A model generated the notes under the pieces. It had not been told where the DNA came from, searched no databases, and saw nothing but the letters and a program-made list of their open reading frames with translations. A DNA stretch of 34,166 nucleotides from Thermodesulfovibrio sp. (GTDB lineage Bacteria; Nitrospirota; Thermodesulfovibrionia; UBA6902): the NCBI GenBank assembly GCA_026982355.1, contig JALSHG010000003.1:1-34166 (forward strand), given 5' to 3'. This document shows positions 29,269-32,534 of the stretch, piece by piece. The first letter of the stretch is position 1; each line of letters begins with the position of its first letter. The translations under genes were made by a program, and so were the position numbers.

Positions 29269-29598
29269 TCCAGATGTATTTTAGCATAAAAATATGTTAT
29301 TCTATGTTAATAACCAGCATTCAGCAACGCTTATCGCATTCAGCTTTCTGTCAGCCCCGGAGCCGTGAATACGGTGGACCAGTGAGCTGAATTACAAGTT
29401 CATCAACAAATCGTATGTTGTATAAACCGCCGGGCGCTCTGCCTAAGCACTTTTATGCAACGGTGACTATATTGCTCATTCATGCTGCTGACAGGCATGT
29501 CCGCGCCGGTCCCTTGTTACGAGGGGACAGACACAACGTTGGATGTCCGGATCGTTCCCGGTACGCGAGACGGATCCGGCATCTCCGGGGAGGAAAAA
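29269..29598. other. Divergent intergenic region with a degenerate palindromic repeat
   Basis: This separates trpF (minus) from the FG-GAP gene (plus). An A/T-rich part (29275-29320) lies next to trpF. TATGTTGTATAA at 29414-29425 and TTATGCAACGGTG at 29453-29465 are a worn copy of the palindromic repeat with most of its core lost. An open frame continues upstream of the FG-GAP start to 29482, but it lacks ribosome-binding sequence and a plausible signal peptide. Confidence 0.5.
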
Positions 29599-32298
29599 AT
29601 GTTAAAGTCCAGAGATTCCCGCTTAATCCGGCCGCGTAGTTTCCTGAATTTCGTATTGATCCTTTTCGTGATTTTTCCGGCGATATTTTTCTCAGCTTTT
29701 CCGTCCGGAACGGGCGAGGCGGCGAAGATAAGGGACGCTGCCGCCGGTGATTACGATGTTTACGTCAGCAGGCCGGGGTATGGACTGTGGTGCTGTCTGG
29801 GCCATACCGGCGGCATAACGGTCGGCGATGTCAATAATGACGGGATCAGTGACTTGATCGTCTCGTCAATAGCCGAAAAAATAGTAAGGGATGAATATTA
29901 TCTGCCCTGGGACCGGGATGCATGGACAGAGGAAAATGCACTTTCCATGTGGAGCGTAGCGTTTAATGGAACGACCCCGGTTGCAAGCCCTGACAGCATT
30001 GCCGGTGACACCAGTATCAGCACCACGCGGACAACCATAGGATCAGTGTCTATGAAGCTGAAATTCACTCAGGCCATTTCTCTGGACCCCGCAGACGATG
30101 CTCTGCATTTGCAGGTTTATGCCGGAGACAACAATGAACGTCTTACTGCGATAATAATACTTGCACCTGACTGGAATAATCGCTTTGAGTATGCTTATGA
30201 TCCCGACCTGTATTTAAACGACACGGGCTGGACGCGGGTTGATGCGGAGTTAACCGTTTTTAAAGCGGCCGCAGGCTCACCTGACTGGAATAATGTAACT
30301 CAGGTTACTATAGGGTTCTGGAACGAGACAGGATCCGGCAATGATATTAAAATCGATGAATTATACTTTGACCATTTCACCGCCGATGTGGTTACGCCTG
30401 CCGGCGCGGTCTACATGTTCTACGGTGGTTTGAAAAGCGGAACCCTTTCGGTTTATGATGATGCCGATGTCACCATTAAAGGCATTGATGCCATTAAGGA
30501 TATCGACGGCAAATACAAAAGTGATCTGACAGGCGAATACATAACCACCGGAGATCTGAACAACGACGGGTATGCCGATATTATAATAGGCACGACAAAG
30601 GATGACGGCCCGAACAATACAAGAAAAGATTGCGGGGCGGTCAATGTTATATTCGGCGGAAGTTCGCTGCCGCCCGTTATAGATCTGAAAAGGGAACCGG
30701 CTGATCTTATAATTTACGGGGCCGATGCCGGGGACAGCCTGGGGATATCGGTCCTTGCATCCGACATCAATGCCGACGGATTCGCCGACCTGATAGCGGC
30801 TGCCTCGAGCGGCGACGGCAGTGATAACAATGGATATGCAAATGGCGAAATACATATATTTCTCGGTTCGGAGCAACTTCGGGGTCTCCTGGATTTAAAT
30901 ACCGTTAATGCGGATATCTCTGTTTACGGCAAAATGTATGATAACCTCGGGACACAGGGGTCTATCGGGGTAGGTGATATCTTCAACGACGGACGGGCGG
31001 ATCTCATCATCGGGGTCTGGGGCGGGGAAAAAGACGCCGCCAGGCGCAATGCCGGTGAGATTGTAATTATAAACAACATCAGTGATTACATGGGAAAGAC
31101 AATCGACCTGGCCTCGTTGTCTCCTGACGCCGCGGTCATTTACGGCGCTGAGAAAGGCGACCGTTTGAGCAGGCTTGCCGTAGGAGATGTCAATAACGAC
31201 GGCATTGACGACATTATCGCCGGTGCGGTATACGCCGACGGGCCGGACAATCTCAGGTATGAGGCCGGCGAGGTCTATATATTCTTCGGCTCATCGTCGT
31301 TTCCCGGGGAGATTGACCTTGATACAACGGATCCGGATGTAAGGATAACAGGGGCGGACACCGGCGATTATATAGACGGGTACCATAACTTCAAGGATCA
31401 CTCCTACATTCCCGATCATCTGGGCCTGAGAATTTATGCCGCCGATATCAATAATGACGGCATAGACGATGTGTTGCTCATTGCCCTTGGAGGCGACGGA
31501 GAGGATAACCTGAAGACGGATGCAGGGGACGCATATGTGTTTTTCGGAAGACCCGACTGGCCCGCATCAATAGACCTGAAAACGGATTTGCCGGATATAA
31601 CCGTCTACGGCGCCGATGAAAAAGATAACCTGAGAGACATATTCGGGGGAGACATTAACGGCGACGGCATTGATGATCTGCTCCTTGGTTACAAGTGGGG
31701 GGACGGACCTGACAATAATTATACATATGCCGGCGATATAATCGCCTTCTACGGCGGCTTCGGCTCTCCTGGCAACTACCGGCCCGAGGCGCCTCAACTT
31801 GTCTCTCCGGCGGACGGCGAGACGGGGCTGGATACAACCGTTGAGTTTGTATGGGAAAGGAGCACGGACCCTGACGGAGATACCGTCACTTACAATCTCC
31901 ATGTATGCGAGGACAACGGATTCACAACAGGCTGTATAAGCAGGGAGAATATCTCCTCCGCATGGAACGGGGGCATTTATTACGCCGGAGCCGGTTCAGG
32001 GCTGTTGCTGTTCGTGACGATTTTTGCAGGCGGCGCTTTAATTTTAAAGAGGAAAGGAAAGACGGCGCTGCTGCTGGTGGTAATCTTGATAAGCGCTTCA
32101 GCGCTGGTTTCATGCGGTAGCGGAGGCGGCGGTAGCGGAGGCGATAATACTGACAACAGCGATCGGCTCACTCAGATTGTGTCAGGGTTAAAGGCAGGCA
32201 CCACGTACTACTGGAAGGTGGTCGCGGATGACGGAAGGGGAGCCGCAACCGCCAGCAGTGTAAGAAGCTTTACTACACGGCAGGCAACCGCAGGGTGA
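29599..32298 (+). CDS. Secreted FG-GAP repeat protein with split fibronectin type III domain
   Basis: About 899 residues. A signal segment (FLNFVLILFVIFPAIFFSAF) is followed by seven integrin-like FG-GAP units with calcium loops such as GDVNNDGISDLIV, GDLNNDGYADIII, SDINADGFADLI, GDVNNDGIDDII and GDINGDGIDDLLL, predicting a beta-propeller. An extra domain of about 110-120 residues (DEYYLPWDRDAWT... to IKIDELYFDHF), resembling a carbohydrate-binding sandwich, is inserted in the first unit. The C-terminus begins a fibronectin type III domain (PQLVSPADGETGLDTTVEFV) that resumes at DRLTQIVSGLKAGTTYYWKV. Between them (about 785-854) is an insert with a Gly-rich TM (GSGLLLFVTIFAGGALIL), KRKGK, and a lipoprotein-like LLLVVILISASALVSC. 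GGGGAGG precedes ATG 29599, so the upstream-extended frame is rejected. Its role is unknown, possibly surface adhesion. Confidence 0.85.
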   Translation: MLKSRDSRLIRPRSFLNFVLILFVIFPAIFFSAFPSGTGEAAKIRDAAAGDYDVYVSRPGYGLWCCLGHTGGITVGDVNNDGISDLIVSSIAEKIVRDEYYLPWDRDAWTEENALSMWSVAFNGTTPVASPDSIAGDTSISTTRTTIGSVSMKLKFTQAISLDPADDALHLQVYAGDNNERLTAIIILAPDWNNRFEYAYDPDLYLNDTGWTRVDAELTVFKAAAGSPDWNNVTQVTIGFWNETGSGNDIKIDELYFDHFTADVVTPAGAVYMFYGGLKSGTLSVYDDADVTIKGIDAIKDIDGKYKSDLTGEYITTGDLNNDGYADIIIGTTKDDGPNNTRKDCGAVNVIFGGSSLPPVIDLKREPADLIIYGADAGDSLGISVLASDINADGFADLIAAASSGDGSDNNGYANGEIHIFLGSEQLRGLLDLNTVNADISVYGKMYDNLGTQGSIGVGDIFNDGRADLIIGVWGGEKDAARRNAGEIVIINNISDYMGKTIDLASLSPDAAVIYGAEKGDRLSRLAVGDVNNDGIDDIIAGAVYADGPDNLRYEAGEVYIFFGSSSFPGEIDLDTTDPDVRITGADTGDYIDGYHNFKDHSYIPDHLGLRIYAADINNDGIDDVLLIALGGDGEDNLKTDAGDAYVFFGRPDWPASIDLKTDLPDITVYGADEKDNLRDIFGGDINGDGIDDLLLGYKWGDGPDNNYTYAGDIIAFYGGFGSPGNYRPEAPQLVSPADGETGLDTTVEFVWERSTDPDGDTVTYNLHVCEDNGFTTGCISRENISSAWNGGIYYAGAGSGLLLFVTIFAGGALILKRKGKTALLLVVILISASALVSCGSGGGGSGGDNTDNSDRLTQIVSGLKAGTTYYWKVVADDGRGAATASSVRSFTTRQATAG

Positions 32299-32302
32299 GG
32301 AT

Positions 32303-32376
32303 TTTGTATAAGGAAAACCGGCGTAAGACCTCTGGACCCTCCCGCCCGCGGGCGGTGTTTTTATACCACTGTATGG
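32303..32376 (+). repeat. Palindromic intergenic repeat, copy 9
   Basis: TTGTATAAGGAAAACCGGCG, TAAGACCTCTGGACCCTCCC, GCCCGCGGGCGG and TTTTTATACCACTGTATGG mark a variant copy with a shortened left arm, right after the FG-GAP stop codon. Confidence 0.7.
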
Positions 32377-32392
32377 ATAATTGTGAAGGTTT

Positions 32393-32421
32393 TTTACAAA
32401 TTATATATAATAAGGTATACT
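32393..32421 (+). promoter_or_regulatory. Strong sigma-70-like promoter upstream of the export gene
   Basis: TTTACA at 32393-32398 and TATACT at 32416-32421, 17 bases apart, each match the consensus at five of six positions, with an A/T-rich spacer. The predicted start near 32428 is about 240 bases ahead of the SLBB gene, so the next palindromic repeat and a half MITE would be in the leader RNA. Confidence 0.55.
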
Positions 32422-32431
32422 TATCGCTATA

Positions 32432-32534
32432 TAACCTTATATTGCACAAGCGGGCGGGAGAATCCGGTGTAAGATCTGGAGGTTTTCCCGCGCGGAGGCG
32501 GAATTTTCATGTCATTGTGAGCAGCAAACCTTAA
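32432..32534 (+). repeat. Palindromic intergenic repeat, copy 10, within the predicted leader RNA
   Basis: TAACCTTATATTGCACAAGC at the left, AATCCGGTGTAAGATCTGGA in the core position, and TTTTCATGTCATTGTGAGC followed by AAACCTTA at the right. It is more diverged than copies 1, 2 and 6 but still forms the long hairpin with CGGGCGGGAG and CCCGCGCGG arms. Confidence 0.75.

Follow-up and report, generated by a model that had tools for sequence, protein, structure and literature searches.

The final fibronectin type III (Fn3) domain encoded by an FG-GAP repeat gene is interrupted by two hydrophobic segments, the second of which ends like a lipoprotein signal. This raises the question of what such a structure does in the middle of a domain. 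The DNA analyzed (the window, 34,166 nucleotides) is the entire contig C3 of a 2.6 Mb genome assembled in 119 contigs.

Anatomy of the split Fn3 domain

The longest open reading frame (29482-32298, 938 aa) contains all elements of the split domain in one frame. Its ATG at 29599 is preceded by GGGGAGG and is a likelier start than position 29482. The following features were located:

29599..32298, + strand: gene for an exported FG-GAP repeat protein with the split-Fn3 module (Pfam FG-GAP, 2.7e-27)
29599..29721, + strand: N-terminal Sec signal peptide MLKSRDSRLIRPRSFLNFVLILFVIFPAIFFSAFPSGTGEA, read directly from the translation
30544..31683 (approximate), + strand: FG-GAP repeats, the cargo portion (Pfam PF01839/PF13517, 7-8 stretches)
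31792..31956, + strand: Fn3 N-half, strands A-B-C-C′ (AlphaFold2 pLDDT 90-97 over most of it; Foldseek FnIII matches; pN/pS 0.15)
31978..32046, + strand: first hydrophobic segment YYAGAGSGLLLFVTIFAGGALIL, helix at about 31999-32049 (translation, AlphaFold2, hydropathy of 55 homologues)
32047..32061, + strand: basic loop KRKGK, predicted to be cytoplasmic (K/R peak in 55 homologues)
32062..32112, + strand: second hydrophobic segment TALLLVVILISASALVS, putative h-region and lipobox of an internal type II signal peptide (uncharged from -14 to -1)
32113..32115, + strand: lipobox Cys, predicted site of lipidation and of cleavage between S and C (conserved in 90/90)
32116..32163, + strand: Gly/Ser-rich linker GSGGGGSGGDNTDNSD (mean of 5.5 G/S in the 7 residues after Cys)
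32164..32295, + strand: Fn3 C-half, strands E-F-G, end of the protein (AlphaFold2 pLDDT up to 97; pN/pS 0.09)

The final Fn3 domain (31792-32298) is thus interrupted behind strand C′ by a hydrophobic helix, the loop KRKGK, a further hydrophobic stretch with LVSC at its end and a Gly-rich linker; strands E-G come after the linker and the protein terminates there. The series YYAGAGSG, LLLFVTIFAGGALIL, KRKGK, LLLVVILISASALVSC, GSGGGGSGG and DRLTQIVSGLKAGTTYYWKV is read in a single frame, which agrees with a sequence-only reading of this DNA that had described a transmembrane segment, basic patch, lipobox and Gly run inside the domain. That reading had correctly placed the lipobox Cys at residue 839, counting from the ATG at 29599 (residue 878 in the 938-aa frame). 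Its position for the break, after YNLHVCEDNGF, needs correction: in the AlphaFold2 (AF2) model the N-half runs about 18 residues further (TTGCISRENISS), to strand C′ (module residues 49-55, window about 31936-31956), and the true insert is at about 31957-32163.

Past the gene, the intergenic region at 32334-32465 contains an inverted repeat of 16 nt (88%), its arms 100 nt apart. Directly 3′ of the split-Fn3 gene, where the contig ends (32667-34109), lies a gene for a polysaccharide export protein (Wza-like, SLBB) that contains internal stretches nearly identical to one another.

Predicted fold and selective constraint

AF2, run on the window module together with 31 relatives, placed the strands of both halves in one domain, with pLDDT mostly 90-97 in the block. 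The two helices of the hairpin (module residues 70-86 and 91-105) were predicted with lower confidence. A divergent Desulfuromonadales module gave the same single Fn3 from both halves, with low-to-moderate confidence for the hairpin. In Foldseek, FnIII structures aligned across the insert (for example 5dft, TMt 0.74), with modest E-values (best 3.6e-3), as is to be expected when the insert is absent from the targets. AF2 and Foldseek thus agree on a seven-stranded FnIII sandwich built from both halves. Scores with Pfam fn3 stayed under the cut-off (15.7-21.7 vs 25 bits), probably because of the insert.

Comparison with the orthologue L030, which comes from a different MAG in the genus, gave pN/pS values of 0.15 for the N-half, 0.35 for the hairpin, 0.24 for the linker, 0.09 for the C-half and 0.35 upstream, the C-half being the most constrained region. 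With about 45 residues the C-half is unlikely to fold alone, and its strong conservation would therefore fit pairing with the N-half. The suggestion of the sequence-only reading that the halves re-pair is in line with this conservation, with their position and with the predicted single Fn3; the AF2 models are of the uncut chain and say nothing on cut halves staying together, and re-pairing after cleavage is a step that we infer.

Exactly two Cys residues, mostly 8-9 residues apart, are present in the N-half of 54/77 modules. The pair lies around strands C/C′ in most Nitrospirota modules (in the window at about 31906-31944) and possibly forms a disulfide that steadies the N-half alone. The C-half is free of further Cys in 74 of the 77 modules, so the halves are as a rule not disulfide-linked.

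Recurrence and distribution

The same genome has three further genes ending in the module (C109:9919, 31901 and 39063; 48-59% identity). One of them encodes a related FG-GAP protein, and the other two have the module on quite dissimilar cargo. Among 296 sampled Nitrospirota genomes, 29 matched at E <= 1e-8, with up to 8 places per genome; one of these (G010) is a weak partial match to a short Fn3 only, which leaves 28 module genomes. The sequence-only reading had looked to genome and phylum for homologous inserts, and both supplied them. Of 194 genomes in the class to which a Desulfuromonadales MAG belongs, 57 matched at E <= 1e-10. The genome collection was scanned with the patterns [GA][TA]TY[YC]WKV and [TK]G[LV][DG]T[TA]VEF. 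Although the Cys and the hairpin lie outside both patterns, relatives aligning over the whole module still carry the hairpin and the lipobox.

The module occurs in Nitrospirota, in Desulfuromonadales and other deltaproteobacterial MAGs, in three Gammaproteobacteria MAGs, and in one MAG each of Spirochaetales and Nitrospinota; the nearest named relatives that bear it are Nitrospirota MAGs and one MAG labelled Deferribacteres. Matches in Flavobacteria, Thermotogota and Cloacimonadota failed the module search and were set aside as apparently ordinary Fn3. Several genomes from the Desulfuromonadales MAG's class (G492, G460, G369) have the module on megabase contigs, indicating that well-assembled, perhaps cultured, strains exist.

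The cargo is diverse (subtilases, HYDIN/VesB-like Ig domains, PD40, FG-GAP), as expected for a sorting tag, and a basic and hydrophobic segment was present at the N-terminus in 20 of 22 relatives inspected. At one locus (L199, G257:C52:62000-80000) four genes of about 870-935 aa stand in a row, all ended by the module. At another (G456:C112:43027-43911) two module genes are convergent and their split-Fn3 ends adjoin.

The internal lipobox

The Cys is kept in all of 90 distinct modules, preceded by S (63), A (21) or G (6), and in copies with the stop codon in view the module ends 0-9 residues ahead of it. In a set of 55 modules K/R residues peak at -22 to -18 relative to the Cys and charged residues are absent at -14 to -1; this hydrophobic/basic/hydrophobic profile suits a hairpin with both halves outside. 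In a set of 77, the basic loop has at least 3 K/R in 75, and the uncharged run from the last K/R to the Cys is 17 residues long in 39 and 14-21 in all. A PS00013-like lipobox pattern was fitted by 76 of the 77, which is far above chance: when the same residues were shuffled, 3.7 fitted on average and never more than 11. The first 7 residues past the Cys contain on average 5.5 G or S, and 47-80 residues follow it. By eye, the internal signal resembles N-terminal lipoproteins of the same genome, e.g. MGKKIVLLISLILSLGLMLTACGAGGGGGGG.

A type II signal with a lipobox, back to back with a preceding helix, as the sequence-only reading had it, has good support from conservation, from its position and from the predicted structure. 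Of the GG-basic patch-VSC pattern that it had proposed to look for, the Cys after S/A/G and the basic loop persist; the first helix, Gly-rich and followed by the loop, has no strict motif across phyla.

Search for a partner protease

The sequence-only reading also anticipated an unusual sorting protease co-occurring with the module; the searches gave no such enzyme. True rhombosortase (TIGR03902 over cut-off) was found in 3/296 Nitrospirota genomes and in no module genome, which rules it out as a general partner in this sample; the cognate enzyme expected of a GlyGly-CTERM system is thus missing from the module genomes. Of the 28 module genomes 16 have an exosortase, as do 120 of the 268 other Nitrospirota genomes. 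The 12 module genomes without a match, among them one estimated to be 100% complete with 4 modules (G194), rule it out as a required partner, and the module genomes in this respect do not behave as those of a PEP-CTERM system. Recurrent neighbours of named module loci included no conserved protease.

The genome under study has an exosortase at C109:25663-26427. Exosortase-EpsI genes lie near module genes in its own genus (C109, L031) and in two other genomes (L198, L151); the neighbourhood in three genomes exceeds chance expectation. At L014:5627-12368 (G000:C109:25627-32368) one strand encodes in a row exosortase, EpsI, a NodU-like carbamoyltransferase, a small SxtJ-like protein and a split-Fn3 FG-GAP protein, and the gene order at L031 is similar. 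Several genomes (L198, L203, L208) have genes for PEP-CTERM proteins close to the exosortase; these proteins are its likely normal substrates. The genome under study encodes a PEP-CTERM-like protein, VTPEPVSFILFIAGGLALTGRVLYRNRKKG, at L022:1723-2280 (minus strand; G000:C22), likely a normal substrate of its own exosortase.

Proposed mechanism

The architecture, its conservation, the lipobox statistics, the predicted fold and the presence of an LspA gene in the genome point to one reading, to which we give a probability of about 0.6: the module contains an internal type II signal peptide, and a lipidated C-half made by Lgt and LspA anchors the large N-terminal part through the Fn3 sandwich that both share. 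The N-terminal signal peptide would direct the chain to Sec export and place the cargo outside. The first helix would then act as a stop-transfer sequence and lead the chain back to the cytoplasmic side, leaving the basic loop and second helix as a normally oriented, N-in/C-out lipoprotein signal in mid-chain; an internal signal would be workable because the upstream helix returns the chain inside. Lgt would lipidate Cys839 and LspA would cleave just before it, giving a 61-residue lipidated peptide that consists of the linker and strands E-F-G (roughly 50-80 residues across homologues). The large N-terminal part would end with strands A-C′ and the two halves would form one noncovalent Fn3 sandwich. 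In the Fn3 topology strand B pairs with E and C with F, here across the proposed cut, and fragment complementation has reportedly been described for fibronectin FnIII10. Since an uncut first helix would keep the protein in the inner membrane, release would need a second cut, in or beside that helix, by an intramembrane protease; the lipidated half of the freed complex could then be sorted to the outer membrane or the cell surface. LptD is encoded in the genome, which indicates that an outer membrane is present. A literature search returned neither an experiment on any member of the module nor a precedent for LspA acting on an internal signal peptide.

The wider statement, that bacteria of several phyla cut surface proteins inside their last Fn3 domain, with LspA yielding a small lipidated half, and leave noncovalent strand complementation of the half-domains as the sole membrane link of large exported proteins, we put at slightly less than an even chance. 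If true, a general C-terminal lipid anchor would be made from an N-terminal-type lipoprotein signal and would serve as a recurrent tag for unrelated cargo (subtilases, FG-GAP and Ig-repeat proteins), while lipoprotein enzymes make N-terminal anchors only. LspA would be able to process an internal signal, half-domain complementation would be a natural protein joint, and on-demand shedding of surface proteins could be allowed.

The strongest competitor, though an unlikely one, is an uncut hairpin: its two helices would hold the protein in the inner membrane, the folded Fn3 domain would sit directly outside, and the Cys would either be lipidated without a cut or carry no lipid. AF2 does fold the uncut chain with the hairpin leaving from one loop, and the searches for rhombosortase and exosortase gave no partner protease. 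A simple anchor, however, would require one helix and no cysteine, and the Cys with S/A/G at -1, the 17-residue K/R spacing and the Gly/Ser linker have all been kept while the helix sequences drift. Lower still in probability is a sortase-like event at the first helix, which would be a sorting signal for an exosortase, rhombosortase or CPBP-type enzyme; this enzyme would cut, and perhaps transfer, the large part and leave the lipopeptide as by-product or acceptor. The sequence-only reading had seen the first helix as a C-terminal sorting signal; in several members it does resemble a tripartite CTERM tail, with a Gly-rich helix and an RRRR end, and the exosortase-EpsI genes near module genes point the same way, but this role is at most suggested, as the helix has no strict motif, rhombosortase and exosortase are distributed as described above, and the PEP-CTERM proteins are the likely normal substrates of the exosortase.

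It is very improbable that the C-half is made separately from an internal translation start, as a small lipoprotein that pairs in trans. The codons of KRKGK, AAGAGGAAAGGAAAG, resemble a ribosome-binding site and the second helix has an in-frame ATG, GTG or TTG in 61/77 modules; the other 16 have none there, ATG itself occurs in only 27/77, the basic n-region would be lost, and no intact separate C-half gene was found. The candidates for such a gene (G138, G125, G316, G213, L191/L072) turned out to reflect contig ends, frameshifts or a Cys-less relic. One of them, L191:3108-3338 (= L072), is a 77-residue frame with a hydrophobic start, a Gly run and an intact Fn3 C-half, without lipobox Cys or upstream N-half; it is either a relic or an orphan half-domain gene. 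As to an artefact (an assembly join, a recent insertion element or a random in-frame fusion), a membrane segment in mid-domain is odd in a single sequence, yet the chance of this is close to nil. L030, the orthologue in the closest relative, carries the same insert (module 83% identical), the same loop is interrupted in paralogues and in several phyla, no flanking direct repeats of at least 12 nt were found, and the hairpin has a pN/pS of 0.35, equal to the cargo. Close homologues lacking the insert, or a join at its position, had been named by the sequence-only reading as what would speak against it; neither is what the data show, and assembly join and random insertion are rejected.

Comparison with known systems

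The module shares with type II lipoprotein signals (Lgt/LspA) the basic n-region, about 17 uncharged residues, the box [LVI]-x-[SAG]-C and a Gly/Ser-rich tether; [LVI][x][AGS]C stands behind an uncharged h-region and a basic n-region. It differs in being internal, near the C-terminus and behind an extra helix, rather than N-terminal: the Cys is residue 878 of 938 and a separate N-terminal signal exists. Beta-rich domains that are cut internally and whose pieces stay together are represented by the FnIII-2 insert domain of the insulin receptor, SEA and GAIN; these are eukaryotic, are cut by furin or autoproteolysis, and the cut creates no lipid anchor. The module would resemble them in the internally cut beta-rich domain and differ in being bacterial and, as proposed, lipid-anchored.

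GlyGly-CTERM/rhombosortase (PMC3237569, PMC6219818) is similar in that its exported proteins have, close to the C-terminus, a Gly-rich helix that ends in basic residues, and some cargo of both has VesB-like Ig domains. It is without a second helix, lipobox or split domain, and rhombosortase does not co-occur with the module. MYXO-CTERM/myxosortase (PMC11980579) is likewise a C-terminal sorting tag with an invariant Cys, a helix and an Arg-rich loop, for which lipidation and intramembrane cleavage are predicted in surface anchoring. In MYXO-CTERM the Cys is ahead of a single helix, the lipobox is undefined and the topology is inverted (PMC11980579); in the module a second helix precedes the Cys, the topology is that of a normal lipoprotein, and what follows the Cys is not a single C-terminal helix and Arg cluster but 47-80 residues with an Fn3 half.

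The closest counterpart is NF058595 of NCBIfam release 20.0 ('invert_tail', 'lipo-invert putative C-terminal anchoring domain'), whose visible model name says 'putative anchoring' only. One copy above its cut-off was found, in a Desulfuromonadales relative (G383:C232, locus L194, 37.8 bits), with the order Fn3 N-half, helix, RRR, helix, lipobox Cys, Gly run and Fn3 C-half, the architecture of the window module. In the first 22 genomes searched no copy passed the cut-off (best 36.2 bits), and 26 of the 32 A2 members matched at E <= 0.01. The window copy scored 21.4 bits as whole protein and 23.8 as module against a cut-off of 37, and is thus a divergent relative rather than a certified member. 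The lipo-invert HMM also scores ordinary N-terminal lipoproteins of the same genome (C8, C22, C112). A literature search found no paper using 'lipo-invert' or describing a split lipoprotein signal within a domain. Overall, the module is already known under its NCBIfam name; the present analysis adds the split-domain anatomy, the Cys in 90/90 modules, the spread over several phyla, a structural model and the negative results for rhombosortase and exosortase, and the mechanism would be surprising if confirmed.
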